From Halorubrum sodomense (lineage in GTDB: Archaea; Halobacteriota; Halobacteria; Halobacteriales; Haloferacaceae), in contig NZ_FOYN01000002.1 of assembly GCF_900111935.1 (NCBI RefSeq), positions 186,001 to 250,000 on the forward strand: a DNA stretch of 64,000 nt, written 5' to 3'. How positions within the stretch are numbered: position 1 is the stretch's first letter; each line of letters opens with the position of its first letter. The position numbers and the translations under genes are program-made. Positions 23,525-51,543 of the stretch are shown piece by piece. Under the pieces are notes generated by a model. It was given only the letters and a program-made list of their open reading frames with translations, searched no databases and had not been told where the DNA came from.

Positions 23525-24238
23525 ATGTCCACGTGGAAACGCGACTTCGCCAGCGGGCTCATCGTGCTGGCGCCGCTCCTCGTCCTCCTCTTAGTCCTCC
23601 GGTGGATCTACCAGTACATCGCGTCGATCCCGCTGATCGAGGGGCTCCAGCCCGAGATCATCCCGGCGCCGTTAGAGCCCGTTTCCCGGGTGATAATCGC
23701 GTTCGCGGTGTTCGCGACCGTCGTCCTCGCGGTCGGGTACTTCATGCGGACCACGCTCGGTCGTCTGGCGGAGTCGGCGGTGGACGACGCGATAAACCGG
23801 ATCCCGGCGCTCCGGGTGGTGTACAACGCCTCGAAGCTCGCGATCGAGACGGCGATCTCCGGCACCGACGAGCTACAGAGCCCGGTGTACATCGAGACGT
23901 GGCCCGGCATCCGCATGACCGCGTTCCGAACCGGGAAGAAGACTCGCGACGGCAAGATCGTCCTGTTCATGCCGACCGCCCCGAACATCACCACCGGCTT
24001 CGTCATCGAGGTCGAGCCGGAGCGGATCGAGGAGACCGGCGAGACCGTCGAGGAGGGGATGACGCGGGTCCTCTCCGCCGGCTTCGCGGAGTCGGCACAC
24101 CAGGTCCCCGTCCACGAGGAGAACCCCGACGAGGGGGACGGCGGCCGGACTCCGGGCGGGTTCGGACACGTCCGGACCGACGGGACGGCCGGCGATTCGG
24201 CGGGGTCGACTGCCGAGGAAAGCGGGTCGGGTGAGTAG
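23525..24238 (+). CDS. DUF502 family membrane protein
   Basis: 237 aa. Two membrane segments (about 10-27 and 52-70) precede a conserved soluble domain. The features of the DUF502 family are visible: FASGLIVLAPLLVLLLVLRW near the start, IPALRVVYNASKLAIE and VLFMPTAPNITTGFVIEV. The function of the family is not known. The last 60 residues are acidic and disordered, and the gene ends just before ilvE on the other strand. Confidence 0.88.
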   Translation: MSTWKRDFASGLIVLAPLLVLLLVLRWIYQYIASIPLIEGLQPEIIPAPLEPVSRVIIAFAVFATVVLAVGYFMRTTLGRLAESAVDDAINRIPALRVVYNASKLAIETAISGTDELQSPVYIETWPGIRMTAFRTGKKTRDGKIVLFMPTAPNITTGFVIEVEPERIEETGETVEEGMTRVLSAGFAESAHQVPVHEENPDEGDGGRTPGGFGHVRTDGTAGDSAGSTAEESGSGE

Positions 24239-24263
24239 CGGTTCGGGCGAGTAGCGGGTCGTT

Positions 24264-25193
24264 TCAAAGGTAGGTGAACCACTCGTCGTGGTCGTCCGTC
24301 CGGCGCTCGACCAGGTCGAAGAAGGCGCTCTGGAGCTCCTCGGTGACCGGCCCGCGAGTGCCGGCGCCGATCTCGGTGTCGTCGACCGAGCGGATCGGGG
24401 TGACCTCGGCCGCGGAGCCGGTGAAGAACAGCTCGTCGGCGGTGTACAGCTGCCCGCGCGAGATGACGGCCTCGTCGTGGACCTCGTAGCCGCGCTCCTC
24501 GGCGAGGGCGATCACGGTGTCGCGGGTGATCCCTTCGAGGATGGACTGCGCCGGCCCGGTGGTGTATATCTCGCCGTCGTTGACCATGAAGATGTTCTCG
24601 CCGGGGCCCTCCGCGACGTTCCCCTCCTTGTTCAGGACGACGGCCTCGACGTAGCCGTTCCGGCGCGCCTCCTCGCCCGCAAGCATGGAGTTGACGTAGA
24701 GGCCGGTCGTCTTCACGTTCGTCGGCACCTGCGAGGAGGCGTGTTTCCGCCACGAGGAGACCATCACGTCGACGCCGTCTTCGAGGGCCTCCTCGCCGAG
24801 GTACGCGCCCCACGGCCACGCGGCGAGGACGAGGTCGGTCGGACAGTCCTTCGGGGAGACGCCGAGCGAGTCGTAGCCGTAGTAGGCGATCGGCCGGATG
24901 TACGCGGAGTCGAGGTCCTGCCGGTCGAGGAGTTCGAGGGTGGCCTCGGTGATCTCCTCGCGGGAGTGTTCGATGTCCATGTCGTACATCTTCGCGGAGT
25001 CGAACAGCCGGTCGAGGTGCTCGTCCCAGCGGAACACCGCCGGCCCCCGCTCGGTTTCGTAACAGCGGACGCCCTCGAACACGCCGCTCCCGTAGTGGAG
25101 CGCGTGGGTCAGCACGTGGGTCGTCGCGTCCTCCCAGTCGAGGAACTCCCCGTTCTTCCAGATCGTGTCGACGTCCATCTCGTCGAATCCCAT
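24264..25193 (-). CDS. ilvE: Branched-chain amino acid aminotransferase
   Basis: 309 aa, fold type IV PLP enzyme that interconverts Leu, Ile and Val with their 2-oxo acids. The PLP lysine is Lys161 in NVKTTGLYVN; HALHYGSGVFEGVRCYE, YIRPIAYYGYDSLG and the phosphate-binding EGPGENIFMVNDG agree with IlvE rather than with D-amino acid transaminase or Pab lyase. Normal length. Minus-strand TATA-like GTTTTAAG at 25218-25227 lies about 25 nt before ATG. MDVDTIW six residues in is a second possible start. Confidence 0.95.
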   Translation of the reverse strand: MGFDEMDVDTIWKNGEFLDWEDATTHVLTHALHYGSGVFEGVRCYETERGPAVFRWDEHLDRLFDSAKMYDMDIEHSREEITEATLELLDRQDLDSAYIRPIAYYGYDSLGVSPKDCPTDLVLAAWPWGAYLGEEALEDGVDVMVSSWRKHASSQVPTNVKTTGLYVNSMLAGEEARRNGYVEAVVLNKEGNVAEGPGENIFMVNDGEIYTTGPAQSILEGITRDTVIALAEERGYEVHDEAVISRGQLYTADELFFTGSAAEVTPIRSVDDTEIGAGTRGPVTEELQSAFFDLVERRTDDHDEWFTYL

Positions 25194-25274
25194 GGTCGGG
25201 AGTTGCGGCCGGCGGGCTTAAAACTGTGACAAGCGGTCGAGTGCTACCACGAGAGCGCAGGGTCGAAACCCATC

Positions 25275-25598
25275 GACGGATCGAGTGTGAACCGCTCTGA
25301 AACCCCAGCCGCTCGGCAATACGTGACCCACACCGCTCTCAGGAACTGCCCCGAAGCCCCAGTCGCGAGGGCGCCGTACGCTCGCTGTGCTCCTCGCTCA
25401 GTCACTCCGCTCCTTCGCTGCGGTGCTTACGTCGCCTACGGCGCCCTCGCGACTGCCCCTTCGAGTCCCACCCCGCACAGCACCTCACGCCTCCCCAGCC
25501 TCGTCGGCCGGTCTCCGCTTCGCTCCGACCGGCCGACTCCCTCGCACGCGCTGGCTCGCGGTCGCCGGGGGCGACCGCTCGCAGGCGCGCGCCGACCG
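25275..25598 (+). repeat. Intergenic hairpin element, copy 2
   Basis: Best-preserved copy of the family. H1 is a perfect 18-bp inverted repeat: AGTCGCGAGGGCGCCGTA (25361-25378) and TACGGCGCCCTCGCGACT (25437-25454). The conserved core is at about 25485-25506. H2 arms are GTCGGCCGGTC (25503-25513) and GACCGGCCGAC (25527-25537) with a 13-nt loop. H3 arms are GCGGTCGCC (25558-25566) and GGCGACCGC (25570-25578). The left end appears twice in degraded form (near 25287 and 25332), as if one copy had been inserted into another. It occupies almost the whole gap between ilvE and ribB; I see no gene in it. Confidence 0.88.
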
Positions 25599-25611
25599 CA
25601 TCAAAAGTCGA

Positions 25612-26385
25612 TTACTTCAGCGCCTCGACGAGGGCCGCGCCCTCGACGTAGGGGATGTCGCGGCGGGCCGCGTAGGCGGCGGCGTCCGCGGGCGCGAGCG
25701 CGTCGCCGGTCTCGTCGTCGAGCATCTCGCAGACCACGGCGGCGGGCGCGGCGCCCACGGCCTCGGCCATCGCGAGGCCGAGTTCGGTGTGACCGGTCCG
25801 CCCCGCGAGCCCGTCGCGGTCGCCGCGCAGGACGTGGACGTGACCGGGCGCGCGGAACTCCGCCGCGAAGTCCTCGGGCCCGTAGCCGGTTGGGTCGTCG
25901 CGGACGCGGCCGGCCGCGTTCGCCACCTCCACGATGGTCTTCGCGCGGTCCGCGTCCGTGATCCCGGTGAACGTCTCGCGGTGGTTCACGGGCAGCGAGA
26001 ACGAGGACCGGTCGTCGTAGTCGGGGTCGTCGTCGACCGCCGGGTGGTCGAGCGCGTCCGCGAGGAACGGCAGGTCGAACGCGTCGCCGACCGCGTCGCT
26101 GACGGCCACGCAGATCAGCCCGCCCGCGTCGTTGCGCATGTGCGCGACCGCGGCCTCGTCGACCGCGCCGGCCGGGTAGACGATGTCCGTCTCGCCCTCG
26201 CGGTCCGCGAAGTCGTGGACGCAGACGGGGTCGCCGGCGCGGAAGGCGTCGAGCGCCCGCTCGACGGGGTCGGTCGCGTCCGGGGCGGCCTCGGCGGTTT
26301 CAGCGGGATCGGCGGTCTCGGTCGATTCGGCGGTCTCGGCCGCGCCCCCGCTCGTCTCGGGGTCGGCGTCGACGTCGGCGCGCAT
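25612..26385 (-). CDS. ribB: 3,4-dihydroxy-2-butanone 4-phosphate synthase
   Basis: 257 aa. Converts ribulose 5-phosphate to the four-carbon riboflavin precursor. After a haloarchaea-specific acidic linker (residues 8-40) the enzyme shows VHDFADREGETDIVYPAG (metal and substrate loop), MRNDAGGLICVAV and GRTGHTELGLAMAEA, all diagnostic for RibB. The ATG at 26385 shares one base with the stop of ribK (TGATG), so ribK-ribB form a translationally coupled pair. No GTP cyclohydrolase II domain is fused, as expected in archaea. Downstream lies repeat copy 2, only 13 nt past the stop. Confidence 0.95.
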   Translation of the reverse strand: MRADVDADPETSGGAAETAESTETADPAETAEAAPDATDPVERALDAFRAGDPVCVHDFADREGETDIVYPAGAVDEAAVAHMRNDAGGLICVAVSDAVGDAFDLPFLADALDHPAVDDDPDYDDRSSFSLPVNHRETFTGITDADRAKTIVEVANAAGRVRDDPTGYGPEDFAAEFRAPGHVHVLRGDRDGLAGRTGHTELGLAMAEAVGAAPAAVVCEMLDDETGDALAPADAAAYAARRDIPYVEGAALVEALK

Positions 26386-27143
26386 CAGGCGGCCTCCGTC
26401 TCGACCGCGGTCGATCCCGTCTCGTCGGCGCGGCTCGTCGGCTCGACGCGGACCTCCACCGCGTCGCCGTCCGCGAGGTCGAGCGCGTCGCGCAGGCGGT
26501 CCGGCGCGATCAGTTCGAGCTGGTCGTCGTCGTGGTGCGTGCGGTCGGGGACGATGGCGTGGACCTCCTCGTAGCGCTCGTCGCCCGCGACGAGGGTGAC
26601 CCCGTAGCAGGTGGCGGCGCCGTAGGTGCGGTCCTCGCCCTCCCACGCGTCGATGGGGACGGCGTCGATGCCGGCCATCTCGCCGCGCCGGCGGACGCTC
26701 TCCTCGGTGAGGTTCACGTTGAGCGTGCCCGGGAACGGGTCGTAGCCCAGCCGCTCGCGGAACTGCTCGGCGTACCCCGGCAGCGTGATGTAGTGGCGCC
26801 CCTCGCCCATCCCGCCGGTGACCGACCCGCGGAGCGAGAGCTCGACGTCCGACTCGAACAGGCGCCGGTAGTCGGCGTACTCCGCGCGGAGCGCGGCCTC
26901 GCCCGCGTCGGTCACCCGGACCCACTGCCCGTCGCTGACCACGTCGCGCTCGACGTAGCCCGCGGATTCGAGCGTCTGGAGGCGTCGAGAGGCGGTCTGC
27001 GTGGAGGCGTCGAGCCGGTCGCCGAGCGCCGCGCACGACACCTTCGTCTCGGAGAGGCCGCCGACCAGCCCGACGTGTTTGAGGGCCGCGAGCGCGGCCG
27101 GGTCCACGTCGGCCGCCGCGTCGGTCGCCGTCGCGTCTGACAT
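26385..27143 (-). CDS. ribK: CTP-dependent riboflavin kinase with N-terminal HTH
   Basis: 252 aa. The C-terminal DUF120 domain (about 100-235) phosphorylates riboflavin to FMN with CTP, as shown for Methanocaldococcus RibK; GSVTGGMGEGRHYITLPGY and PGTLNVNLTEES are its signature. The N-terminal 95 residues form a winged helix (LGDRLDASTQTASRRLQTLESAGYVER), so the protein may also bind DNA and act as repressor, like the RbkR regulators of archaea, which usually carry this fusion. It is the first gene of the ribK-ribB operon. Start at MSDATATD with the TATA-like T-tract at 27165-27171. Autoregulation of its own operon is inference. Confidence 0.94.
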   Translation of the reverse strand: MSDATATDAAADVDPAALAALKHVGLVGGLSETKVSCAALGDRLDASTQTASRRLQTLESAGYVERDVVSDGQWVRVTDAGEAALRAEYADYRRLFESDVELSLRGSVTGGMGEGRHYITLPGYAEQFRERLGYDPFPGTLNVNLTEESVRRRGEMAGIDAVPIDAWEGEDRTYGAATCYGVTLVAGDERYEEVHAIVPDRTHHDDDQLELIAPDRLRDALDLADGDAVEVRVEPTSRADETGSTAVETEAA

Positions 27144-27402
27144 ACGATACGCTCGGTCGTCAGCGGGCAAAAGGGTAACGAATGTGGAACGCATCTCAGG
27201 AACGTTAATCAGTCGGCGGAACCGACCGGAGACCGCTGGAGCCGATAGTTCCCGCGCTGGATATGTAACCCCGTCGGTGCCGGTCGGCTTCGCGGCGTCT
27301 CCGGTGACTCCCCGAACCGGTTCGGTTCCCGGATGTGAGCGTCTCCCGCACCGGTCAGCGAAAGGTAAGGTACAAATACGAACGGGGATTGATTCGTGAT
27401 GA

Positions 27403-29888: not shown

Positions 29889-30362
29889 TCACGACTCGTC
29901 GTCTGCGGTCTCGTCGTCGTCTGCGGTCTCGTCGTCGTCTGCGGTCTCGTCGTCGTCTGCGGTCTCGTCGTCGTCTACGGTCTCGTCGTCTGCGGTCTCG
30001 TCGTCTGCGGTCTCGTCGTCTGCGTCGGCGTCCTCCTCGGACTCGACGTCGATCCTCACGGGCCCCTCGTCGGACTCGGCGCCGTCCGGCTCGGACCCGT
30101 CTGACCCGTCGGTGGCTCCCGAATCACGTCTCTCGTCGGCCGCCGACTTCAGTTCGCTGACGGCGTAGCCGACCGCGTAGCCGGTCGACCCGCCGAGGAA
30201 CGCGCCGATCCCGGCGCCGACCGGGCCCCCCCGGGCGCCGAGGACCGCGCCGGTGAAGCCGCCGAGCGTCGCCGCGCGCTCCGCGTCGCGCTCGGGGTCG
30301 CCGGTGGGTTCGAGCGCGCCCTTCCCGTGTCGGTCCGCGTCGGTGTGTTCGTGGCCGGTCAT
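29889..30362 (-). CDS. Glycine-zipper protein with acidic tandem-repeat tail
   Basis: 157 aa. Residues about 30-66 are glycine-rich and weakly hydrophobic (GGFTGAVLGARGGPVGAGIG), like glycine-zipper membrane segments. The last third is a run of DDETAD units encoded by direct DNA repeats, a region able to change length by slippage. TATA-like ACATATAC lies about 25 nt before the ATG at 30362. Function unknown. Confidence 0.72.
   Translation of the reverse strand: MTGHEHTDADRHGKGALEPTGDPERDAERAATLGGFTGAVLGARGGPVGAGIGAFLGGSTGYAVGYAVSELKSAADERRDSGATDGSDGSEPDGAESDEGPVRIDVESEEDADADDETADDETADDETVDDDETADDDETADDDETADDDETADDES
29901..30020 (-). repeat. In-frame tandem repeat (18-nt x5, 15-nt x2)
   Basis: Five 18-nt units (GTCTGCGGTCTCGTCGTC on the plus strand, the fifth with one change) at 29901-29990, followed by two 15-nt units to 30020. 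They encode DDETAD and DETAD units of the protein tail. Array length is a multiple of three throughout, so variation keeps the frame. Confidence 0.9.
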
Positions 30363-38081: not shown

Positions 38082-39569
38082 TCACCGCTCCGGGTGCGTC
38101 GGCGCGTCGAACCCGCCGCGGACGAGGGGCTTCGCGACGTGGCGGCGCGCGCTCGGCGGCACCTCGTACCAGCCGACCTCGAGGTCGCGCTCGATCGGTT
38201 CCGCGACCTTCCCCGGCGCGCTCGTGCCGCAGTCGCGACACCGGTACCCCTGCCCGCTCCCCGCCGAGGACATCGACCGCCCGCAGTCGGGACACGTCGG
38301 CACCGCTGGCGCCGTTCGGACGAGGTCGCGGACGGCGAACTTCTCCAGCTTAAGCGTGCTCTCGGGCCCGTCCGCGTCGTCTCGCACCTCGTGTTCTCGC
38401 ACCTCGTGTTCTCGCACCTCGTGTTCTCGCACCTCGTGTTCTCGCACCTCGTGTTCGCCGCAGAGGGTGACGCGGTCGCCCGGCCGGAGCGCGCGCACCC
38501 GGTCGCGGAACCGCCCCGTGGGCGCGAACGCGACGGCGCGGAGGGTGTCGCGGTCCGCGGCCGGACCGCCTTCGCCCGTCGCGGCCGCGACGTCGACGTG
38601 GACGTGCCCCCCTTGTTTCGTCTCTGGCGCGCTCGCCACCACGCCCGCGACGCGGTAGCCGGCGCCGTCGCGGAGGCCCCCGATTCGCCCGGGCGCGAGG
38701 TGGGCATCGGTGCCCTGGTTCGTCAGGAACGTCGCGGCGCGGTCGACCGTTTCGCCGTCGATATCGGCCGCGACCTCGCGACACGCGGTCGCATCGTCGC
38801 CCCGGATACCGTAGAGGATCGGCCCGGGGGCGTTGGGGACGCAGACGGCGGCGCCGGTCTCGCGGTCGACGGTGTCCCAGACCGTCGGGTACCCCTCCTC
38901 GGCGGCGGCGAAGACGCTCTCGACGTCGACCTCGCGGGGCGTCCCGCAGCGGTCGAGCTCGCGGTAGGCGATCCGCTCGAACGTCCAGTCGTCGAACGCC
39001 GCCGGCGCGCCGACCGCCGCGAGCGCGCCGATCCGCCCCCGTCCCGCGACCCCGTCCGCCCCGCCGGCCTCGTCCGCCTCGTCTGTCTCGCGGCCCCCGT
39101 CCGCCATGCCGGCCCCGCCTGCCGAGCCGACCGCGGCGTGTCGGAACCCGTGTTCGTCGGCGAGGTCGACCGCCTCGGCGACGGAGAGCCGCTCGCGGAG
39201 CGCGCGGTGCGCGAATCCGGCGACCGCCTCCGGGATCGGCTCCCCGGTCGGGTCGAAGGGGTCGCCGTCGACGTCGCGGTCGGCGACGACGATGCCGGGG
39301 GAGGTCCGGGGGTCAGCGGCCGCAGCGAGCTCCTCGACCGTCTCGACGGCGACGGTCGCGGCCCGCTCCGCGTCGACCCCGGAGACGTGGATCGCGACCG
39401 CGGCGTTCCCGCGCGTCTTGTGTTTCACGGCCGGATTCAGGCGAACGAGTAGCCGCCGACGGACTCGGCCGCCCGCGTCCGCGAGCCGCTCCGCGATCCG
39501 CGTCGCGACGTACGTCGTGCACATCCCGCGCTCGCGGGAGTCGGTGTCGTCGACGGCGACGATCGGCAT
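38082..39569 (-). CDS. tiaS: tRNA(Ile2) 2-agmatinylcytidine synthetase
   Basis: 495 aa. TiaS puts agmatine on C34 of tRNA-Ile(CAU) so that it reads AUA. The N-terminal kinase-type domain begins [25 protein letters not shown] with its GMCTTY substrate loop and continues [15 protein letters not shown]; the middle region has the FLIA-type [11 protein letters not shown]; an OB-fold follows, then a C-terminal zinc ribbon (CPDC and CRDC pairs). The frame from 39596 is longer, but MPIVAVDD at 39569 is the conserved start. The odd part is a five-fold EHEVR repeat (residues 372-396) inside the OB-fold, absent from TiaS as I know it. Confidence 0.93.
38382..38456 (-). repeat. 15-nt tandem repeat (x5) inside tiaS
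   Basis: Five perfect units of TCGCACCTCGTGTTC (plus strand), 38382-38456, coding for EHEVR five times. All copies are identical, which points to recent or ongoing slippage. Unit length of 15 keeps the reading frame. Confidence 0.95.
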
Positions 39570-39766
39570 GCGACGCGGTTCGTGGCGGCGCGTCAAGCCC
39601 CTTTCGAGGGCGGCCCGGTCGCTCTCCGGTCGGTCGACCCGCTCTCGGCCCCGGTCGAGTATTTAACCGTTTCCCGTGCCGAACGCGGAAAATCGCAGGC
39701 GGGCGGCAGTTTCGTCGGGAGGGAGACGACACAACGCATATATACGGCGAGCCGCTTGTTTCGGCT

Positions 39767-40810: not shown

Positions 40811-42337
40811 CTACCGACCGAAGAGCCGGCTGAAGAATCCCCCGCTCTTCTCCTGTTCCTCCTCGTCGCTCCGGGGGTCGGCCGCTTCGGAGGGCTCGGG
40901 ATCGGTTCGGTCCGCGTCGTCGGCGTCCGGGGACGACTCGGATCCGTCGTTCCCCTCGTCTTCCCGGTCCTCGTCGGACAGCACGGTGTTCATCGTCCCG
41001 GTGTCGTCGTCGCGGAACGGGATGCTGCCGGCCAACTCGTCCTCGACGTCGTCGCCGGACCCGGTCTCGCCGGTCGCCGTCCGCGCGGTCTCGTCCGCAT
41101 CGGGAATCGGGGCCGGTTCCGCGTCGCTCTCCTCCGCGTCGCTCTCGGCTGCGTCCTCGTCGCCCTCCGCTGCGTCGCTCTCGGCTGCGTCCTCGTCGCC
41201 CTCCGCTGCGTCGCTCTCGGCTGCGTCCCCGTCGCCCTCACCGGCGGTCGCCGCGGCCGATTCGCTCGCCGTCTCGTCGCCGTCGGCGGCGGGACCTCCG
41301 TCCGCGTCCTCGTCCGTGTCATCGTCGGTCGGTTCGCTCTCGCTCGCGACGATGATGTCCTCGCCGTCGCCCGGCTCCGTCACCCCGGTCGCGTCGGGGT
41401 CCGCGACGATTATCTCGCCGTCCTCGGAGGCGGCCTCGCCGTCCTCGGAGGCGGCCTCGCCGTCGCTTTCGTCGGTGGTGCGTTCGTCGTCGGCCTCCAG
41501 CTCGTCCGCGTCCGCTCGTTCGCTCTCCCCCGCCTCGTCGTCGGTCGCTTCCGGTTCGGCCTCGCCGTCGTCGTCTCCGTCGCCCCCGTCTCCGGCACCG
41601 CCCGCGGCGTCGGCCGCGGGTTCGTCGAGCCCGGTGCCGTCGATATCGGTTCCCGTCAGGGCCCGGGCGAGGTCGCGATACGCCCGCGTCGCCGGCGCGT
41701 CGGGCGCGACGGCCAGCAGGGGTCGGTTCGCCGCCGCGGCCCGGGGCACGGCCTCGTCGTCGGGGATCCGGCCGAGGATCGGGGCGTCGAGCAGCGCCGT
41801 GACGACCTCGTCGGCGTCGTCGGTCACGCGCGTGATCGCGGCGCCCGCGACGGTCCCGCCGAGGCGCTCGGTCAGCTGTCGGGTCTTCTCGGTGTCGCCG
41901 AGGGCGCTCCGCTCCGGCGTCGAGACGAGCAGCGTCTCGTCGGCGACCGCGAGCGGCATCGTCGAGTCGTGGGAGAGGCCGGCGCCCGCGTCGACGAACA
42001 CGAAGTCGGCGTCACCGAACGCCTCGACGACCCGGCGGAGCCCGGACGGGTCCGCGGCCGCGTACGCGTCGAGGTCGGCCGCCCCCGGGACGACCCGGAG
42101 GCCGGACGCCCCCTCGCGGACCGCGTCCTCCGGGTCTGCCTCGCCGGCGAGGACGTCGTGGAGGGTGGTCTCGCCGGGGGTCACCCCGACGACGCCCGCG
42201 AGGTTCGCCATGCCGAGGTCGGCGTCTATCGCGACGACGTCGGCGCCCGACTCCGCCAGAACCGTCGCCAGCGCCGCGGTCGTGGTGGTCTTCCCGACGC
42301 CACCTTTCGCCGACGCGACCGCATACACCGTTGCCAT
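40811..42337 (-). CDS. MinD-family P-loop ATPase with long acidic C-terminal tail (MinD4-like)
   Basis: 508 aa. Residues 1-235 are a MinD/ParA ATPase with deviant Walker A KGGVGKTT (11-18), switch I-type DLGMANLAGV and the VDAGAGLSHD Walker B. There is no clear membrane-targeting amphipathic helix. Instead the remaining 270 residues are acidic and disordered, closing with a conserved-looking basic/aromatic cap KSGGFFSRLFGR. Haloferax MinD4, which oscillates between cell poles and helps place archaella and chemosensory arrays, has such an extension; the position beside the ATP synthase genes also agrees with what I remember of it. Divergent from atpH; TTTAAG 25 nt before ATG. Confidence 0.85.
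   Translation of the reverse strand: MATVYAVASAKGGVGKTTTTAALATVLAESGADVVAIDADLGMANLAGVVGVTPGETTLHDVLAGEADPEDAVREGASGLRVVPGAADLDAYAAADPSGLRRVVEAFGDADFVFVDAGAGLSHDSTMPLAVADETLLVSTPERSALGDTEKTRQLTERLGGTVAGAAITRVTDDADEVVTALLDAPILGRIPDDEAVPRAAAANRPLLAVAPDAPATRAYRDLARALTGTDIDGTGLDEPAADAAGGAGDGGDGDDDGEAEPEATDDEAGESERADADELEADDERTTDESDGEAASEDGEAASEDGEIIVADPDATGVTEPGDGEDIIVASESEPTDDDTDEDADGGPAADGDETASESAAATAGEGDGDAAESDAAEGDEDAAESDAAEGDEDAAESDAEESDAEPAPIPDADETARTATGETGSGDDVEDELAGSIPFRDDDTGTMNTVLSDEDREDEGNDGSESSPDADDADRTDPEPSEAADPRSDEEEQEKSGGFFSRLFGR
41145..41239 (-). repeat. 36-nt tandem repeat in the MinD-like tail
   Basis: Two exact 36-nt units (41145-41180, 41181-41216) and a partial third (41217-41239) encode the acidic AAESDAAEGDED unit of the tail. 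Unit length is a multiple of three. A related but diverged acidic pattern continues on both sides. Confidence 0.85.
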
Positions 42338-42514
42338 ACGGTGAGGGTCCGGCGACTGCTACTTAAATGTAGGCGGCGGCGACCGGATCCGACCGCCGGG
42401 TCGGACGCGTTCCGGACGAGATCCGTCCGGAATCGCCCCGGTATCTCCGCGAAACCCCGCGGGCTTTCGCAAACACCTTATACGTCGCTTGTGGAGTTTC
42501 AGGCGATTAGTAGC
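42338..42514. promoter_or_regulatory. Divergent promoter region, MinD-like gene and atpH
   Basis: 177 nt without a gene. On the minus strand TTTAAG at 42361-42368 serves the MinD-like gene. On the plus strand CTTATACGTC near 42477-42485 lies about 30 nt before the atpH ATG at 42515 and is the likely main promoter of the ATP synthase operon. Confidence 0.6.
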
Positions 42515-42871
42515 ATGGCGAGACCAGAGGTGCTCAACTCGATCAAGCAGGCCGAACGGGAGGCGGACGAGATCATCGCGACGGCGGAGTCGGACGCCGA
42601 CGAGCGCCTCGCCGAGGCTCGAGAGCGCGCGGACGAGATCCGCGCCGAGGCCGAGGAGGAGGCGGAGGCCGAGGCCCAAGAGCGGCTCGAAGCGGCCCGC
42701 GAGGAGATCGAAGAGCGGCGCGAGGAGATCCTCGAATCGGGGCGTAACGACCGCGACGAGCTCGAACGCGAGGCCCGCGAGCGCGTGGACTCGGCCGTCG
42801 ACTACGCCGTCGAACGGTTCGAGGAAGCGGTGAACCAACAGGCCGAGGAGGCGGTGGATGCTCAGGCCTGA
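42515..42871 (+). CDS. atpH: A-type ATP synthase subunit H
   Basis: 118 aa, one long charged coiled coil (EADEIIATAESDADERLAEARERADEIRA is only the middle of it). In the A1Ao complex, subunit H pairs with subunit E as a peripheral stalk. The ATG at 42515 is preceded by TAGTAGC and lies about 30 nt after the TATA-like CTTATAC. Overlaps atpI by 14 nt. First gene of the atpHIKECFAB operon. Confidence 0.9.
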   Translation: MARPEVLNSIKQAEREADEIIATAESDADERLAEARERADEIRAEAEEEAEAEAQERLEAAREEIEERREEILESGRNDRDELEREARERVDSAVDYAVERFEEAVNQQAEEAVDAQA

Positions 42872-45089
42872 GCGGATGAGCCGGGTGTCGGTGACGGGAT
42901 CGAAGCGCGTCATCGACGACGTCATCGAGGCGGCGTACGCCCACCACTCCCTGCACGTCACCGACTACGACGACCGGTACGAGGGGTTCGAGCCCGGGAC
43001 CTCGCTCGAGGGCGCCGAGACCGTCAACGAGCGGCTCGTGACGGTCCGGTCGCTCGAGAGCATCCTCGACGTCGAGGCCGACGACGCCGACGTCGCTCGG
43101 TCGCTCGACGACGACGAACTCGAGGCCGAGCTCGACCGCGTCCGCGAGCGAGTCAACGAGCTCAACGACGAGCGCGACGAGCTCCAGGCCGCGATCCGCG
43201 ACCGGCAGGAGGAGATCGACCGGATGGAGCCGTTCGCCGAGCTCGGGATCGACCTGGAGTACCTGCGCGGCTACGACTCGGTCGAGGTCGTCGTCGGCGA
43301 GGCGAAGGTCAGCGCCGTCGAGGCGGCGCTCGAAGACGCCGAAACGATAGGCGCCTTCGACGTCTTCGCCGGCGGCGACGTGGTCGCCATCGTCGCGCGA
43401 CCGACCGACCCGGACGCCGAGGGCGTCGTTCAGGACGCGCTCGTCGGCGTCGACATCGCGCTGCTCGACGTGCCGGACGCGGACGCGAGCCCCGAGGAGT
43501 ACGTCGCGGAGCTGGAGGCCGAGCAGGCCGACCTCCGCGACGAGCTCGACGCCGTCGAAAGCGAGCTCGACTCGGTGAAAGAGGAGGCCGCCGGCTTCCT
43601 GTTGCGCGCCGAAGAGCGGCTCACCATCGAGGCCGAAAAGAAGGAGGCGCCGCTCTCCTTCGCGACGACGGAGAACGCCTTCGTCGCCGAGGGGTGGGTG
43701 CCGACCGAGACGTACCCCGACTTCGAGGCGGCCGTCGTCGACGCGGTGGGCGATCACGTCGAGGTCGAGGAGCTCGAACGCGCCTCCTTCACCGCCGACG
43801 GCGACCACCACGCCGAGCCGGTCGACGACGAGACCGGCGGGGCGGAGGCGTCCGACTCTCCCGCCGCAGACGCCGAGGACGCGACCGCGGAGCGCGAGGC
43901 GGCCACCGACGGCGGCCACGCGGCGCACGGTTCCGACGACCCGCCGGTCGTTCAGGACAACGGCGGCGCCGCGGGACCGTTCGAACTGCTCGTTCAGGCG
44001 TTCGGGCGGCCGAGGTACTCGGAGTTCGACCCGACGCTTCTGGTCTTCCTGACGTTCCCGGCGATGTTCGGGTTCATGATCGGTGACGTCGGGTACGGCG
44101 CGCTGTACGCCGCGGTCGGCTACTTCATGTACACCAAGTACGACGGCTCGTTCCGCGAACTCGGCGCCGTCGCGATGTGGGCCGGCGGATTCACGATACT
44201 GTTCGGGATCTACTACGGCATCGACCTGTTCGGCTACCACGCCTACCAGCTGCTCGGGATCCACTGGCCGGTCGAGGGGAAGGGCCTCTCGCCCGCCGAC
44301 CTCGACTGGGGCCTCTCGTTCCTGGTCGTGAGCGTCGTGTTCGGCATCGTTCACCTCAATATCGGACACGTCCTCTCGTTCGTGCGCACCCACCAGCAGC
44401 ACGACCTCAAACACGCGATCTACGAGGGGGGATCGTGGCTGCTGATCCTCAACGGCGCGTGGATCTGGATTTTCAGCCAGCACGTTCCCGGTCCGAAGCC
44501 CGACTTCCTGTTCGACGCGGTCTCGGTCCTCACCTTCGGCGCGGTCTCGTTCAGCGGGTTCCCGGTCGTCGTCGGCATCGCCGGCGCCGCGGCGGCCGCC
44601 CTCGGGATCGTCCTGCTGGGAATCGGTGAACCGCCGGAGCTGGCCGAGTTCCTCTCGCCCGTCGTCAACGTCATCTCGTACGCCCGGCTCATGGCCGTCC
44701 TGCTCGCGAAGGGCGGGATGGCGCTCGCGGTCAACCTGCTCGCGTTCGGCGCGTACATCGACGACGGCGGCCAGGGGAGCTTCCACTTCATCTTCTCCGC
44801 GGAGCACCTCGCTCACGTTCAGGAGACGCCGAGCGAGGAGCTGGTCTTCGCGGGGATCACCACCGCGTTCGATCCCGCCTCCATCGGCCTCGTCGGGGTC
44901 GTCGCCCTCGTGGCCGGGATTCTCGTCGCGGTCGTCGGCCACCTCGTCGTCCTGCTGCTCGGCGTCACGTCCGCCGGTATCCAGGCCGTCCGCCTCGAGT
45001 ACGTGGAGTTCTTCGGGAACTTCTACGAGGGCGGCGGGCGGGCGTACCTGCCGTTCGGCCGCGACCGGAAGTACACCCGCGAGGACTGA
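42858..45089 (+). CDS. atpI: A-type ATP synthase subunit I (a-like)
   Basis: 743 aa. The N-terminal 330 residues are a cytoplasmic coiled-coil/alpha-beta stalk-binding part, then an acidic linker (about 320-375) and a C-terminal membrane part with about eight helices (from FELLVQAFGRPRYSEFDPT). The proton half-channel Arg should lie in the sequence SPVVNVISYARLMAVLLAKGGMALAVN. The start ATGCTCAGGCC at 42858 overlaps atpH; ATG at 42876 (MSRVSVTG) is the alternative. Length and organisation are normal for archaea. Confidence 0.95.
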   Translation: MLRPERMSRVSVTGSKRVIDDVIEAAYAHHSLHVTDYDDRYEGFEPGTSLEGAETVNERLVTVRSLESILDVEADDADVARSLDDDELEAELDRVRERVNELNDERDELQAAIRDRQEEIDRMEPFAELGIDLEYLRGYDSVEVVVGEAKVSAVEAALEDAETIGAFDVFAGGDVVAIVARPTDPDAEGVVQDALVGVDIALLDVPDADASPEEYVAELEAEQADLRDELDAVESELDSVKEEAAGFLLRAEERLTIEAEKKEAPLSFATTENAFVAEGWVPTETYPDFEAAVVDAVGDHVEVEELERASFTADGDHHAEPVDDETGGAEASDSPAADAEDATAEREAATDGGHAAHGSDDPPVVQDNGGAAGPFELLVQAFGRPRYSEFDPTLLVFLTFPAMFGFMIGDVGYGALYAAVGYFMYTKYDGSFRELGAVAMWAGGFTILFGIYYGIDLFGYHAYQLLGIHWPVEGKGLSPADLDWGLSFLVVSVVFGIVHLNIGHVLSFVRTHQQHDLKHAIYEGGSWLLILNGAWIWIFSQHVPGPKPDFLFDAVSVLTFGAVSFSGFPVVVGIAGAAAAALGIVLLGIGEPPELAEFLSPVVNVISYARLMAVLLAKGGMALAVNLLAFGAYIDDGGQGSFHFIFSAEHLAHVQETPSEELVFAGITTAFDPASIGLVGVVALVAGILVAVVGHLVVLLLGVTSAGIQAVRLEYVEFFGNFYEGGGRAYLPFGRDRKYTRED

Positions 45090-45224
45090 CGGCCGGACCG
45101 ACCGCCGGCCACCGTTCGGTCCCGTCGCGTTCCCCCGCGCTCGGACCCGGCACCGCCGTCGGGTTTTCGACCGCAGTAGCCCCCGCTTTCCGCCTCGTTT
45201 TCCCCGAATCCGTTCGGTCGTTTT

Positions 45225-45240
45225 GGGAAGCTTTATGACT
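45225..45240 (+). promoter_or_regulatory. Putative internal promoter before atpK
   Basis: GCTTTATGAC near 45229-45238 is a TATA-like box in the 204-nt gap between atpI and atpK. It would give a leader of about 35-40 nt. A separate promoter here would raise expression of the c-subunit, which is needed in many copies per complex. Confidence 0.45.
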
Positions 45241-45293
45241 CCTCTAGGGGCAAATAGCAACCGTTCGGAGACGAGCAACAGCAACTACTACCA

Positions 45294-45548
45294 ATGTTTG
45301 AAGCTACCAACGAACTCGGGAACCTCGTACTGTCGACCGGTGGAACGCTGACTAACCCCAGTGCCGCGGCGGCGCTCGCCGTCGGCCTGGCAGCGCTGGG
45401 CGCCGGCTACGCGGAGCGCGGTATCGGGTCGGCCGCCGTCGGCGCGATGGCGGAGGACGACGACCTCTTCGTGAACGGGCTCATCCTGACGGTCCTTCCC
45501 GAGACGATCGTCATCCTCGCGCTCGTCGTCGTCTTCATCGTCGGGTAA
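45294..45548 (+). CDS. atpK: A-type ATP synthase subunit K (c, proteolipid)
   Basis: 84 aa, two hydrophobic helices forming the rotor c-ring. The first helix carries the glycine pattern AVGLAALGAGYAERGIG; the second holds the ion-binding carboxylate Glu70 in LPETIVILALVV. Only one hairpin is present, unlike the two- or three-hairpin c-subunits of some methanogens and Thermococci. Sits between atpI and atpE with its own probable promoter. Confidence 0.93.
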   Translation: MFEATNELGNLVLSTGGTLTNPSAAAALAVGLAALGAGYAERGIGSAAVGAMAEDDDLFVNGLILTVLPETIVILALVVVFIVG

Positions 45549-45569
45549 CTCTCCAGCGTTTTTCAACCA

Positions 45570-46148
45570 ATGAGTTTGGAAACCGTCGTTGAGGACGTCG
45601 AAGATGAGGCCCGCGCGCGTGCGGAGGAGATCCGCGAACAGGCCGAGGCGGAGGCCGACGAGATCGTCGCCGAGGCGGAGGCCGACGCGGAGCGCATCCG
45701 CGAGGAGCGGCTCGCCGAGGTCGAGCGTCAGATCGACCAGGAGCGCGAACAGACGCTCTCCTCGGCGAAGCTCGAGGCCAAACAGGAGCGGCTCGGCGCT
45801 CGCCGCGACGTCTTGGAGGACGTTCGCGACGAGGTCGAGGCGGCGATCGCCGGCCTCGAGGGCGACGACCGCCGCGAGCTCACCGAGGCCCTGCTCGACG
45901 CGAGCCTCGCGGAGTTCGACGACGACGAGGACGTCGCCGTCTACACCCGCGCCGAGGACGTCGAGCTGCTCGAAGAGCTCGTCGCGGACCGCAACGCCGA
46001 GGTCGACGGCGAAGTCGACTGTCTCGGCGGCGTCGTCGCCGAGAGCGACACCTCCCGCGTTCGCGTGAACAACACGTTCGACTCGGTCCTGGAGTCCGTC
46101 TGGGACGACGAGTTGAAGAACATCTCGGAGCGGCTGTTCGACCAATGA
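45570..46148 (+). CDS. atpE: A-type ATP synthase subunit E
   Basis: 192 aa. The N-terminal half is a charged coiled coil and the C-terminal half a compact alpha-beta head (VAVYTRAEDVELLEELVADRNAEVDGEVDCLGG region). Subunit E binds the A1 headpiece as part of the peripheral stalk with H. Start 21 nt after atpK; its stop overlaps atpC (ATGA at 46145-46148). Confidence 0.92.
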   Translation: MSLETVVEDVEDEARARAEEIREQAEAEADEIVAEAEADAERIREERLAEVERQIDQEREQTLSSAKLEAKQERLGARRDVLEDVRDEVEAAIAGLEGDDRRELTEALLDASLAEFDDDEDVAVYTRAEDVELLEELVADRNAEVDGEVDCLGGVVAESDTSRVRVNNTFDSVLESVWDDELKNISERLFDQ

Positions 46149-47191
46149 GCGCCGCCGGCAGCTCGAACCCCGAGTACGTCGTCGCGCGGGTTCGTGCCCG
46201 CCGCGGCAGCCTCTACGGGGACGAGGAGTACCGCAAGCTCACCCGGATGGGGCCGGCGGAGATCGCCCGGTTCATGGAGGAGTCGAGCTACGGCGAGGAG
46301 ATCAACGCCTTGGGGAGTCGCCACGGCGGCGTCGACCTGATCGAGTACGCGCTGAACCGGAACCTCGCCGAGCAGTTCGACGACATCCTCGACTGGAGCG
46401 AGGGGACGCTGTACGACCTGATCGCCCGGTACCTCCGGAAATTCGACGCATGGAACGTGAAGACGGTCATCCGCGGCGTCTACACCGACGCGGACCAGTC
46501 GGCCGTCGAGGCCGACCTGATCCGCGCCGGCGAGTTCGACGACCGCCGGATCCGGCGGCTGCTGGAGGCGGACTCGATCGACGGCGTGATCGAGGTCCTC
46601 GAAGACACGATCTACGGGGAGCCGCTGCGGGAGGCGTACGCCGAGTTCGAGGAGACGGGCGTGCTGGTGCCGCTGGAGAACGCGGTCGACCGCGCGTTCT
46701 ACGAGCGGCTCCTCTCCGGGCTCGGCGGCGACGAGCCGACCCGGCAGTACGAGGCGTTCCTCAGGGCAGAGGTCGACTTCCGGAACGCGACGAACGCGCT
46801 CCGGCTCGCCCGCTCGGGCGCCGATATCGACCCCGCGGCGTACTTCATCGAGGGGGGCGACCTGTTCACTCGCTCGTCGCTCGCGCGGCTGGCGCAGAAC
46901 CTCGACGAGCTGGTCGAGTACATCGGCGACAGCCAGTACGGCGAGGAGCTCGGGCCCGCGCTGCGCGAGCTCGAGGCGGCGGACAGCCTCATCGCGTTCG
47001 AACACGCGATCGACGGCGCGCTGTTGGCGTACGGCGACCGGCTCGGCACGATCCACCCGGTGTCGGTCACCCCGGTGATCTCCTACATCCTCGCGAAGGA
47101 GCGCGAGACGGAGAACATCCGAGCGATCGCCCGCGGAAAGGAGGCCGGCCTCTCGCCGGACGAGATCGAATCGGAGCTGGTGATAACATGA
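46145..47191 (+). CDS. atpC: A-type ATP synthase subunit C
   Basis: 348 aa, funnel-like all-helical protein that couples the rotor axle to the c-ring. It has the internal three-fold arrangement of the V-type d/C subunit family, with conserved YVVARVRARRGSLYGDEEY at the start and NIRAIARGKEAGLSPDEI at the end. Overlaps atpE by 4 nt and atpF by 4 nt. Confidence 0.93.
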   Translation: MSAAGSSNPEYVVARVRARRGSLYGDEEYRKLTRMGPAEIARFMEESSYGEEINALGSRHGGVDLIEYALNRNLAEQFDDILDWSEGTLYDLIARYLRKFDAWNVKTVIRGVYTDADQSAVEADLIRAGEFDDRRIRRLLEADSIDGVIEVLEDTIYGEPLREAYAEFEETGVLVPLENAVDRAFYERLLSGLGGDEPTRQYEAFLRAEVDFRNATNALRLARSGADIDPAAYFIEGGDLFTRSSLARLAQNLDELVEYIGDSQYGEELGPALRELEAADSLIAFEHAIDGALLAYGDRLGTIHPVSVTPVISYILAKERETENIRAIARGKEAGLSPDEIESELVIT

Positions 47192-47517
47192 GCCAGGAGA
47201 TAGCGGTCGTCGGCAGCCCGGAGTTCACGACCGGATTCCGCCTCGCCGGCGTCCGGGCGTTCGAGAACGTGCCGGACGACGAGAAGGACGAGAAGCTCGA
47301 CGACGCCGTCGAGCGGACGCTCGACGACGAGGGCGTCGGCATCATCGTGATGCACGACGACGACCTCGACCACCTCTCGCGGGGGACCCGCGAGGCGGTC
47401 GAGGGGAGCATCGAGCCGGTCCTCGTGACGCTCGGCGGCTCCGGCGCCGGCAGCGGCGGGCTGCGCGACCAGATCAAACGCGCCATCGGCATCGACCTGA
47501 TGGAGGAAGACGACTAA
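47188..47517 (+). CDS. atpF: A-type ATP synthase subunit F
   Basis: 109 aa. Small Rossmann-like subunit that sits at the central axle; conserved [18 protein letters not shown] at the N-terminus and [15 protein letters not shown] at the C-terminus. ATG overlaps the stop of atpC. atpA begins 1 nt after its stop. Confidence 0.93.
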
Positions 47518-47518
47518 T

Positions 47519-49282
47519 ATGAGCAAAGCAGACACAACCGACGCCGCGACAGACAGCGGTGTCATTCAGAGCGTGAGCGGTCCGGTCGTGACCGCCCGCG
47601 ATCTCAACGCCCGCATGAACGACGTCGTCTACGTCGGCGACGAAGGGCTCATGGGGGAAGTGATCGAGATCGAGGGCGACCTCACGACCGTTCAGGTGTA
47701 CGAGGAGACCTCCGGCGTCGGCCCCGGCGAACCCGTCGAGAACACGGGCGAGCCGCTGTCGGTCGACCTCGGCCCGGGGATGCTGGACGCCATCTACGAC
47801 GGCGTTCAGCGCCCCCTGGACGTGCTGGAGGGCAAGATGGGGAGCCCCTACCTCGACCGCGGGGTCGACGCGCCCGGCATCGACCTCGAGGAGGAGTGGG
47901 AGTTCGAGCCCGCGGTCGAGGAAGGCGACGTCGTCGAGCCCGGCGACATCGTCGGCGTCGTCGAGGAGACGGTCACCATCGACCACAAGGTCATGGTGCC
48001 GCCGGACTACGAGGGCGGCGAGGTCGTCGCCGCCGAGGCCGGCAGCTTCGACGTGACTGAGACGGTCGTCGAGCTCGACAACGGCGAGGCGGTCTCGATG
48101 CACCAGGAGTGGCCGGTGCGCGAGGCCCGCCCCGCGGAGGACAAGAAGACGCCCCGGACGCCGCTGGTGTCCGGGCAGCGCATCCTCGACGGGCTGTTCC
48201 CCATCGCGAAGGGCGGGACGGCCGCGATTCCCGGCCCGTTCGGCTCCGGGAAGACGGTCACTCAGCACCAGCTCGCGAAGTACGCCGACGCGGACATCAT
48301 CGTCTACGTCGGCTGCGGCGAGCGCGGCAACGAGATGACGGAGGTCATCGAGGACTTCCCCGAGCTGGAGGACCCGGCCAACGGCAACCCGCTGATGGCC
48401 CGCACCTCGCTCATCGCGAACACCTCGAACATGCCCGTCGCGGCGCGCGAGTCCTGTATCTACACCGGGATCACGATCGCCGAGTACTACCGCGACATGG
48501 GGTACGACGTGGCGCTGATGGCCGACTCCACCTCGCGGTGGGCGGAGGCGATGCGCGAGATCTCCTCCCGGCTGGAGGAGATGCCCGGCGAGGAGGGGTA
48601 CCCCGCGTACCTCGCCGCCCGGCTCGCGCAGTTCTACGAGCGCGCCGGCTACTTCGAGAACATCAACGGGACGGAGGGCTCCGTCTCGGCGATCGGCGCG
48701 GTGTCGCCGCCCGGCGGCGACTTCTCCGAGCCGGTCACCCAGAACACGCTGCGGATCGTGAAGACGTTCTGGGCGCTCGACGCGGACTTAGCGGAGCGCC
48801 GCCACTTCCCGTCGATCAACTGGAACGAGTCCTACTCGCTGTACAAGGATCAGCTGGACCCCTGGTTCGAAGAGGAGGTCGCCGACGACTGGGCCGAGCG
48901 GCGCCAGTGGGCGGTCGACGTGCTCGACGAGGAGACGGAGCTGCAGGAGATCGTCCAGCTCGTCGGGAAGGACGCCCTGCCCGACGACCAGCAGCTCACC
49001 CTGGAGGTCGCGCGCTACCTGCGCGAGGCGTACCTCCAGCAGAACGCGTTCCACCCGGTCGACACGTACTGTCCCCCGGAGAAGACGTACCTCATGCTGA
49101 CGACGATCCAGACGTTCAACGACGAGGCGTTCGACGCGCTCGACGCCGGCGTCCCGGTCGAGGAGATCATCGACATCGAGTCGGCCCCGCGGATTAACCG
49201 CATCGGCGTGCAAGAGGACTACGAGGAGTACGTCGAGGATCTCAAAGCCGAGATCAGCGAGGAGCTCCGGAGCCTCTACTGA
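47519..49282 (+). CDS. atpA: A-type ATP synthase subunit A (catalytic)
   Basis: 587 aa, the catalytic subunit of the A1 head. Walker A GPFGSGKT is at residues 239-246, followed by [22 protein letters not shown] and the conserved [12 protein letters not shown]. The A-specific non-homologous insert (about 115-190) is present. Start is 2 nt past the atpF stop. No intein is found, although this gene is a known intein site in archaea. Confidence 0.97.
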
Positions 49283-49284
49283 CC

Positions 49285-50706
49285 ATGAAAGAGTATCAAA
49301 CCATCACCGAGATCAGCGGTCCCCTCGTGTACGCCGAGGTCGACGAGGCGATCGGCTACGACGAGATCGTCGAGATCGAGACGGCACAGGGCGAGACGCT
49401 GCGCGGACAGGTGCTCGAATCCTCGGAGGACGTGGTCGCCATCCAGGTCTTCGAGGGCACCTCAGGCATCGACAGAGACGCGTCCGTCCGCTTCCTGGGC
49501 GAGACGATGAAGATGCCCGTCACCGAGGACCTCCTCGGGCGGGTGCTCGACGGTTCCGGCCGCCCGATCGACGACGGTCCGGAGATCGTGCCCGAGGAGC
49601 GCCAGGACATCGTCGGCGCGGCGATCAACCCGTACTCCCGGGAGTACCCCGAGGAGTTCATCGAGACGGGCGTCTCCGCTATCGACGGGATGAACACGCT
49701 CGTCCGGGGCCAGAAGCTTCCGATCTTCTCCAGTTCGGGCCAGCCGCACAGCGAACTGGCGATGCAGATCGCGCGACAGGCCAGCGTGCCCGAAGAGGAG
49801 GAGGGCGACGACGAGGACGGCTCCGAGTTCGCCGTCATCTTCGGCGCGATGGGGATCACCCAGGAGGAGGCCAACGAGTTCATGCAGGACTTCGAGCGAA
49901 CCGGTGCCCTGGAGCGCTCCGTCGTCTTCATGAACCTCGCGGACGACCCCGCCGTCGAGCGGACGGTCACGCCGCGGATGGTCCTGACGACGGCCGAGTA
50001 CCTCGCCTTCGAGAAGGACTACCACGTCCTCGTCATCCTGACGGACATGACCAACTACTGCGAGGCGCTCCGCGAGATCGGCGCGGCCCGCGAGGAGGTG
50101 CCGGGCCGACGCGGCTACCCCGGGTACATGTACACCGACCTGGCGCAGCTGTACGAGCGCGCCGGCCGGATCAAGGGCCGCGACGGCTCCGTCACCCAGA
50201 TCCCGATCCTCACGATGCCGGGCGACGACGACACCCACCCGATCCCGGACCTGACCGGGTACATCACGGAGGGGCAGATCTACGTCGACCCCGACCTCAA
50301 CAGCCAGGGCCTCCAGCCGCCGATCAACGTCCTCCCCAGCTTGTCGCGGCTGATGGACGACGGGATCGGCGAGGGGCTCACCCGCGCCGACCACGCGGAC
50401 GTGAAAGACCAGATGTTCGCGGCGTACGCGGAGGGCGAGGACCTCCGCGACCTCGTGAACATTGTCGGTCGGGAGGCGCTCTCCGAGCTCGACAACCAGT
50501 ACCTCGACTTCGCGGACGCGTTCGAGTCGGAGTTCATCGACCAGGGCTTCGAGACGAACCGCGACATCGAGGAGACGCTGGAGATCGGCTGGGACCTCCT
50601 CTCGATGCTGCCGAAGGACGCCCTCAACCGGATCGACGAGGAGTTCATCGAGGAGCACTACCGCGAGGACGACGCCGAGCGCGAAGTCGTCGAAGCGGCC
50701 GACTAA
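49285..50706 (+). CDS. atpB: A-type ATP synthase subunit B (regulatory)
   Basis: 473 aa. The non-catalytic nucleotide-binding subunit of the A1 head, recognised from [38 protein letters not shown] in place of a true P-loop, [11 protein letters not shown] and [17 protein letters not shown]. Begins 2 nt after atpA. Last gene of the tight atpH-B operon; atpD follows after 138 nt. Confidence 0.97.
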
Positions 50707-50844
50707 CGTCTCGGCTCACTTTTCCCCGCGCAGTCGTACGTTACCCCTGAGCGGCGGCGTCGCCGCTGACGACGCGCACGCCGGCCCGCCGACCCGCCGC
50801 GTCTGAAAAGAATTAACCGCCTCGGAGCGGAACCTCTCCCCAAG

Positions 50845-51543
50845 ATGGCCAAGGATGTCAAACCGACGCGCAAGAACCTGATGGCGATCGAGGACCGCAT
50901 CGAGCTCTCCGAGCGCGGTCACGACACGCTCGAACAGAAGCGCGACGGGCTCATCATGGAGTTCATGGACATTCTCGACCAGGCGCAGGACGTCCGGTCC
51001 GAGGTCTCCGAGAACTACGAGACGGCCCAGCGCAAGATCGACATGGCCCGGGCGATGGAGGGCGACGTCGCCGTCCGCGGCGCGGCCGCGGCGCTGAAAG
51101 AACACCCCGAGATCACGACCCAGTCGAAGAACATCATGGGCGTCGTGGTCCCGCAGATCGAGTCCTCGAAGGTACAAAAGAGCCTCGACGAGCGCGGCTA
51201 CGGGCTGCTCGGCTCCTCGGCGCGGATCGACGAGGCCGCCGACGCCTACGAGCAGCTGCTCGAGTCGATCATCCTCGCCGCCGAGGTCGAGACGGCGATG
51301 AAGAAGATGCTCACGGAGATCGAGACCACGAAGCGCCGCGTGAACGCCCTGGAGTTCACGCTGCTCCCGACCCTGTACGAGAACCAGGAGTACATCGAGC
51401 AGAAGCTCGAAGAGCAGGAGCGCGAGGAGATCTTCCGCATGAAGAAGATCAAAGCGAAAAAAGAGGAGGAGGAGAAGGAAGAGGCCGAAGAGGACGCCGC
51501 GGTCGCGGCCGCGGAGACCGAAGAGCCCGAGCCCGCCGACTGA
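50845..51543 (+). CDS. atpD: A-type ATP synthase subunit D
   Basis: 232 aa. Central axle subunit, long helical hairpin with [36 protein letters not shown] and the C-terminal helix [34 protein letters not shown]. It lies 138 nt after atpB behind GAATTAACC (about 50811-50819), a TATA-like box, so it can be transcribed separately. The [16 protein letters not shown] tail is haloarchaeal. Confidence 0.95.

Follow-up and report, generated by a model that had tools for sequence, protein, structure and literature searches.

A MinD4 orthologue of Halorubrum sodomense with a MinD-like C-terminal cap and conserved islands in a long acidic tail

The locus

The window analysed here is a stretch of 64,000 nucleotides from Halorubrum sodomense (contig NZ_FOYN01000002.1, positions 186,001 to 250,000), and all positions below are counted from its first letter. 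It contains a gene for a MinD-type ATPase with a long C-terminal tail and, facing it across an intergenic region, the operon for an A-type ATP synthase (Table 1). The feature as first delimited ended at 42514, i.e., it comprised the minD4 ORF and the intergenic gap as far as the ATG of ahaH (42515).

Table 1. Features of the minD4 locus and its surroundings in the window
Feature	Residues	Position	Strand	Basis
minD4 orthologue, 508 aa		40811..42337	-	ORF list, ATG start, stop included
ATPase domain	1-232	41642..42337	-	AF2 pLDDT, fold and phmmer matches
Deviant Walker A, AKGGVGKT	10-17	42287..42310	-	invariant K11-T17
Acidic tail, predicted disordered	233-496	40850..41641	-	pLDDT <50 over most of the stretch
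21-nt tandem array (SEDGEAA)	292-308	41414..41464	-	2.4 copies, 100%
Two IIVA boxes, GEIIVADPDATG and EPGDGEDIIVASESE	306-335	41333..41422	-	10-mer conservation in genus
36-nt tandem array, free spacer	367-407	41118..41239	-	tandem-repeat detection
IPF box, DDVEDELAGSIPFRDDDTGTMNTVLSD	429-455	40973..41053	-	10-mer conservation in genus
Cap, KSGGFFSRLFGR	last 12	40814..40849	-	130/131 orthologues; likeness to E. coli MinD terminus
Intergenic minD4-ahaH, divergent starts		42338..42514	.	sequence
A-type ATP synthase operon, ahaH to ahaD		42515..51543	+	subunit profile matches
rbkR (26385-27194), ribB (25615-26388), ilvE (24264-25193) and a further gene		23611..27194	-	follow minD4 in other genera

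The identification as a MinD-type ATPase, made in the first-pass annotation, is borne out. The whole protein scores 209.6 bits against TIGR01969 (minD_arch), above the cut-off of 201.75, and it also has a CbiA/MinD/ParA Pfam match. In the AF2 model, pLDDT is 85-98 per ten-residue block across residues 1-230. The best PDB fold match is the MinD of A. fulgidus (1hyq; phmmer 3e-42), and the archaeal MinDs 1hyq, 1g3q, and 1ion are the three best PDB matches both by sequence and by fold. Residues K11-T17 of the deviant Walker A motif and D117 of Walker B (numbering of the first row) are invariant in an alignment of 23 rows.

A TATA-like element, ATTTAAGTA, can be seen by eye on the minus strand (window 42338-42370), about 25-30 bases before the start codon of minD4; this is the placement expected for a leaderless archaeal transcript.

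The divergent neighbours match the ATP synthase subunits H, I, E, C, A, B, and D; H, E, C, A, B, and D each exceed at least one cut-off, and subunit I lies below the cut-offs of its models. The gene had been described as divergent from the ATP synthase operon, and indeed minD4 on the minus strand faces ahaH to ahaD on the plus strand.

Orthology to MinD4

A search of 148 genomes of the family gave 132 with a MinD4-like best hit (cut at E <1e-40). Of these loci, 129 were used (G069, G088, and G116 were left out) and three from a class search were added to give 132; one of them (L033, covering the L037 gene again) is cut short by the end of its contig and was dropped, which leaves 131 complete orthologues.

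In a tree of 141 rows, with MinD4 limited to at most six rows of the window's own genus and at most two per other genus, all 49 Haloferacaceae MinD4 rows fall into one clade (support 99/92) apart from the paralogues, and the genera in which the gene is divergent from ahaH are nested within it at 100/96. HVO_0322, which is MinD4 of Haloferax volcanii according to the excerpts of PMC11588486, is not among the rows, and the link to it goes through locus numbers and synteny: HVO_0326 and HVO_0327 are rbkR and ribB in the excerpts of PMC8305020. Of 22 loci with wide flanks (five of them from genus g24, and including Halegenticoccus tardaugens, L135, and Halogranum rubrum, L136), 20 have rbkR and ribB downstream of minD4 in the same orientation, and 11 have ahaD upstream of it, again in the same orientation, some stretches being too short to reach ahaD; L352 and L354 have neither rbkR/ribB nor ahaD. 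Given the single clade and the rbkR/ribB synteny, the window gene is, on sequence grounds, the MinD4 orthologue of a member of the Haloferacaceae. The identity originally proposed for it is confirmed by the same two results, and a placement outside MinD4, the phylogenetic outcome named in advance as speaking against it, did not occur in the Haloferacaceae.

The protein might instead be one of the other MinD paralogues (MinD1-3), with a tail by coincidence. The genome does hold three further MinD-like ORFs, and the deep branches between families are unsettled in the tree, so that the orthology of the MinDs of other haloarchaeal families to MinD4 is not settled by it. However, these three ORFs have neither tail nor cap, and the window protein is nested in a MinD4 clade with the minD4-rbkR-ribB neighbourhood found in most of the wide loci; we therefore consider a paralogue extremely improbable.

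The neighbourhood differs in part from that of the relatives. In the window, rbkR, ribB, and ilvE share the strand of minD4 at a distance of about 14 kb; the atp operon, with a DUF6276 gene, is on the other strand. In the window's own genus, ahaI is beside minD4 on the opposite strand in 30 of the 31 complete loci (the remaining locus starts at a contig end), and the same holds for all three g12 loci and the single g14 locus. Relatives in which ahaD was seen next to minD4 have the gene at that end of the atp operon; divergence from ahaH was observed only in the own genus and two close genera. The simplest reading is that the atp operon looks inverted relative to the minD4 block, and the divergent layout would then be derived and say little about function. 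As to the nearness to the atp genes that had been likened to Haloferax, the synteny with ahaD and rbkR/ribB in relatives agrees with it, but the ahaH-divergent arrangement is a local one.

The C-terminal cap

With the cap defined by the expression [GS]-[FLIV]-[FLIV]-x-[RKW]-[FLIW]-[FLIV] inside the last 14 residues, it is found at the C-terminus of 130 of the 131 complete Haloferacaceae MinD4 orthologues, from 26 genera, compared with a mean of 0.0/131 in shuffled tails (200 rounds) and 0/23 in paralogues. Position 1 is glycine in 129 of the 130; at position 5, 118 have arginine and 12 have tryptophan. When columns are anchored on the cap expression (n = 130, locus L058 left out), the entropy of the seven cap columns is 0.07-1.54 bits, against 2.2-3.0 bits at positions -12 to -2. 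The apparent loss of the cap in L058, from a genome without ArlD/E, was rejected: the sequence does encode the cap, out of frame after an assembly gap of 12 N. The conservation of the cap, claimed in the first-pass annotation from a single sequence, is thus upheld by the comparison of haloarchaeal tails that it had proposed, in which the cap proves fixed in the family; the opposite outcome, a cap not conserved in MinD4 orthologues, did not occur in the Haloferacaceae.

The terminus of E. coli MinD (MG1655) is EEEKKGFLKRLFGG. Its likeness to the cap, together with the C-terminal position, leads us to read the cap as the membrane-targeting sequence (MTS) itself. To judge from sequence, the cap is the canonical MTS of MinD, displaced to the tip of a disordered tether, and it is likely to be the targeting part of MinD4. 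The original description had a cap "instead of" a membrane-targeting helix; a cap that replaces the MTS is ruled out by the comparison with E. coli. Its further suggestion that the cap may be the targeting part probably holds, but not as a new proposal, since the targeting role of the MinD C-terminus is the accepted view for MinD and reportedly goes back to Szeto in 2002. Nussbaum is likewise said to have found, in 2020, that H. volcanii MinD4 carries an MTS homologous to that of bacterial MinD and that this MTS is essential for oscillation.

The AF2 model has a short helix in the cap at residues 501-505, with low confidence (about 64), and the hydrophobic moment hardly separates caps from shuffled caps (median 0.48 vs 0.44). 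As proof of a membrane helix, the moment was rejected as not discriminating. Since it stays near the shuffled level, membrane binding is argued from homology and position. These same features, i.e., a short helix of low predicted confidence and an unexceptional moment, would also suit a cap that docks onto a protein rather than anchoring in the membrane. Such a docking peptide is nevertheless very improbable in view of how closely the cap resembles the E. coli MinD terminus residue by residue, the C-terminal position in all but one orthologue, and the reportedly essential role of the MTS in MinD4 oscillation; moreover, an uncultured archaeon (L139), which the tree places apart from the haloarchaeal groups, has a MinD with a like terminus, EEEKQGFFKKIFGR.

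A search of the window's own genome for cap-like C-termini with a single fixed pattern gave three matches, compared with two in the reversed control, and minD4 is the only convincing one. Genus g24 (e.g., L061, L082, L103, and L345-L349) has a GFLRWLL-type cap.

The tail: variable length and tandem repeats

The tail after the ATPase domain has 276 residues, close to the 270 first given for it, nearly all of them without confident structure in the AF2 model. Tails of the family are strongly acidic (21% D and 16% E in 128 tails, three loci of the final 131 having joined later). Their lengths after the domain range from 22 to 501 residues (median 256; 131 orthologues), the tails of genus g24 having only 22-87 residues (11 loci).

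The 36-nt repeats that had been described are present (3.4 copies, 94% matches, score 209). They are not common to other species: within the genus, 10-mers of the array recur in 0-4 of the 30 other tails, compared with 0-5 for shuffled tails, and an expression for the repeat matches none of the other proteins among the 131. Repeats as such are widespread, since TRF finds arrays in 112 of the 131 tails, the best array has a period divisible by three in all but two of these (110/112), and the repeat units differ among the arrays of the orthologues inspected as examples.

Two further arrays lie in the window outside minD4. One is a perfect 15-nt tandem array of 5.1 copies (HEVRE repeated; 38380-38456, minus strand), which lies in frame within a TiaS-like tRNA-modification gene (38082-39596), before the zinc ribbon; this conserved enzyme seems to have gained the in-frame repeats recently. 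The other is an 18-nt tandem array (29896-30020; 7.3 copies, 92% matches).

Conserved islands in the tail

When each 10-mer of the window tail is sought in the tails of 30 congeneric species, allowing at most three mismatches, conservation is concentrated in a few places. In the IPF box, 10-mers starting at residues 429-446 are found in 23-30 of the 30 species (none in shuffled tails). In the second IIVA box, 10-mers starting at 321-326 are found in 21-24 species (again none in shuffled tails); the first is weaker (starts 304-312, 7-16 species), as is a PIPDADE stretch (starts 408-413, 12-14 species). For comparison, 10-mers of the cap starting at 496-499 are found in 27-30 species, and those starting at 453-490, between the IPF box and the cap, in 0-6. 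Expressed as patterns, [IV]PF occurs in 31/31 tails of the genus and [DE][IV][IV][VI]A in 26/31. Within the genus, the IPF box is therefore as conserved as the cap and the IIVA box somewhat less so, and the repeats are not shared between species. The first-pass annotation had the length of the tail free and the cap fixed. Both parts stand, as does the freedom of the spacers, but the tail is no plain spacer.

Across the Haloferacaceae, [IV]PF occurs in 80 of the 131 tails and 12 of the 26 genera (in shuffled tails, 0.8 on average and at most 5), a count that is partly post hoc because the pattern had been chosen by visual inspection of five sequences of this family. The expression was fixed before the sequences of families f6 and f7 were examined, so the counts there (5/5 and 7/7) are a fair test. 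No [IV]PF was found in f2 (0/9), f3 (0/12), f4 (0/23), f8 (0/1), or the paralogues (0/23). Two further patterns, defined after the f6 and f7 tails had been inspected, are [YM]xTxL (68/131 tails, 8 genera; shuffled mean 0.3, maximum 3) and [ILV]P[DE]AE (23/131 tails, 9 genera; shuffled mean 1.8, maximum 6). In genus g28 (15 loci), both [IV]PF and [YM]xTxL occur in 15/15 tails. In the window's own genome, the IPF-box pattern is found in the minD4 copy only.

Acidic composition is usual in haloarchaeal proteins. The tail could accordingly be a passive halophilic spacer, in which the islands merely keep the protein soluble or resist proteolysis and neither length nor motifs have a positional role. 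The composition of the tails fits such a spacer, and so do lengths that vary more than twentyfold, down to those of genus g24, and the 14 of 26 genera without [IV]PF in any tail examined. Against it, a 27-residue island is conserved like the MTS in the 31 species of the genus next to a stretch that is scarcely conserved at all, [IV]PF occurs in the family far above the shuffled maximum, and truncation of the tail of H. volcanii MinD4 impairs motility, as reported in the excerpts of PMC11621097. On balance, we regard a purely passive tail as rather unlikely.

A proposed mechanism

The best explanation, and one that we hold to be very probable, is that the window gene encodes the MinD4 of a member of the Haloferacaceae, with an MTS on a tether, docking islands in that tether, and a role in the polar placement of the motility machinery. 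In bacterial MinD, ATP-driven dimerisation and cooperative membrane binding are established. By analogy, the ParA/MinD ATPase domain of MinD4 would dimerise on ATP; its last 8-12 residues would be an amphipathic MTS carried on a disordered acidic tether of 264 residues, and the two anchors of each dimer would make membrane binding weak and cooperative. The length of the tether would drift through in-frame slippage of the repeats. The IPF and IIVA boxes, presumably kept by selection, would most simply be docking peptides for partner proteins. MinD4 may then help to place the archaellum and the chemotaxis machinery at the poles, as has been reported for Haloferax MinD4.

The distribution of ArlD/E (PF04659) bears on this last step. 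In the 148 genomes, 16 lack MinD4, 20 lack ArlD/E, and 11 lack both, with nine that have MinD4 only and five ArlD/E only; hence, ArlD/E is absent in 11/16 genomes without MinD4 compared with 9/132 of the others (Fisher p 4e-8). In the genomes that are at least 90% complete (n = 133), the figures are 6/8 and 7/125 (p 6e-6), an association that involves few lineages, with the double absences in these genomes all in two genera; seven of the 133 keep MinD4 without ArlD/E and two have ArlD/E without MinD4. This co-absence weakly supports a role in motility.

The genomes without a MinD4-like best hit include six of genus g3 (G002, G030, G050, G077, G086, and G092) and one of the window's own genus (G146), with best E-values of 1.1e-35 to 9.5e-34. 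ArlD/E is absent in four of these six g3 genomes and present in G002, G092, and G146. In genus g24, minD4 and an ArlD/E gene are about 7-20 kb apart in several genomes and 55-71 kb apart in others.

MinD4 is the only archaeal MinD with reported oscillation in the parts of the literature covered. The MinE partner of a MinCDE oscillator was not found: MinE (PF03776) had no match in 97 haloarchaeal genomes, that of the window included, compared with matches in three of 14 named control genomes, among them E. coli. According to the excerpts of PMC11621097, H. volcanii MinD4 with mutations in Walker A or Walker B still oscillates but forms no polar caps. A more speculative idea, which we put forward as doubtful, is that the tether uncouples the anchor from the nucleotide switch, such that the MTS samples the membrane in any ATP state, and that an archaeal regulator brought in by the IPF and IIVA boxes stands in for MinE. 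Such uncoupling would explain why these Walker mutants oscillate without polar caps. If it were true, the short-tailed genus g24 would be a natural test, as oscillation there should depend on the ATPase.

The map of constrained elements (anchor, IPF, and IIVA) and free ones (repeat spacers) points to point mutants and bait peptides rather than undirected deletions of the tail, and the natural tails, from the shortest to the longest, are ready-made variants for tether experiments.

Comparison with known systems

The closest solved structures, the archaeal MinDs 1hyq, 1g3q, and 1ion, have chains of 237-263 residues and no long tail. The MinD of E. coli shares the ATPase fold (3q9l is among the fold matches) and a C-terminal MTS, GFLKRLFGG. 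In E. coli, however, the MTS comes almost directly after the domain in a protein of 270 residues in total, whereas in the window protein the long tether lies between the two.

Other haloarchaeal families end differently. The strict cap expression matches 1/57 sequences from six of them (f2, f3, f4, f6, f7, and f8); by eye, the ends in f2, f3, f6, f7, and f8 have other hydrophobic stretches and those in f4 have none. The Natrialbaceae-type MinD (e.g., L138 from Natrinema altunense) is the best MinD-like match in these genomes and has a tail motif like the mid-tail motif of f7, but it differs in having no cap (0/23) and in ending in VS[SN]AITEAE in 22/23, and its orthology to MinD4 is unsettled by the tree. 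The count of 23 comprises L138, L234-L237, L239, L240, L244, L245, L247, L252, L255-L259, L261, L263, L264, L266, and L268-L270, with none of the family-f4 loci from a further search added. Three f7 relatives (62-65% identity to L138) and other f7 proteins have a related mid-tail motif and a hydrophobic end, so the Natrialbaceae type may have lost the anchor and acquired a new conserved end.

The nearest known system is MinD4 of H. volcanii (HVO_0322), likewise a MinD ATPase whose long C-terminal extension is required for motility (excerpts of PMC11621097 and PMC11588486) and whose gene lies a few locus numbers from rbkR/ribB (excerpts of PMC8305020). The window gene differs from it in being divergent from ahaH, with an apparent inversion of the atp operon, and in having repeats that are not common to other species. 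The parts of the MinD4 literature covered, with Nussbaum 2020 outside that scope, contain no mention of the tail islands. MinD4 and its long tail are already known, and the islands are the part worth testing; the interest of the case lies in these conserved islands and in the natural range of tether lengths.
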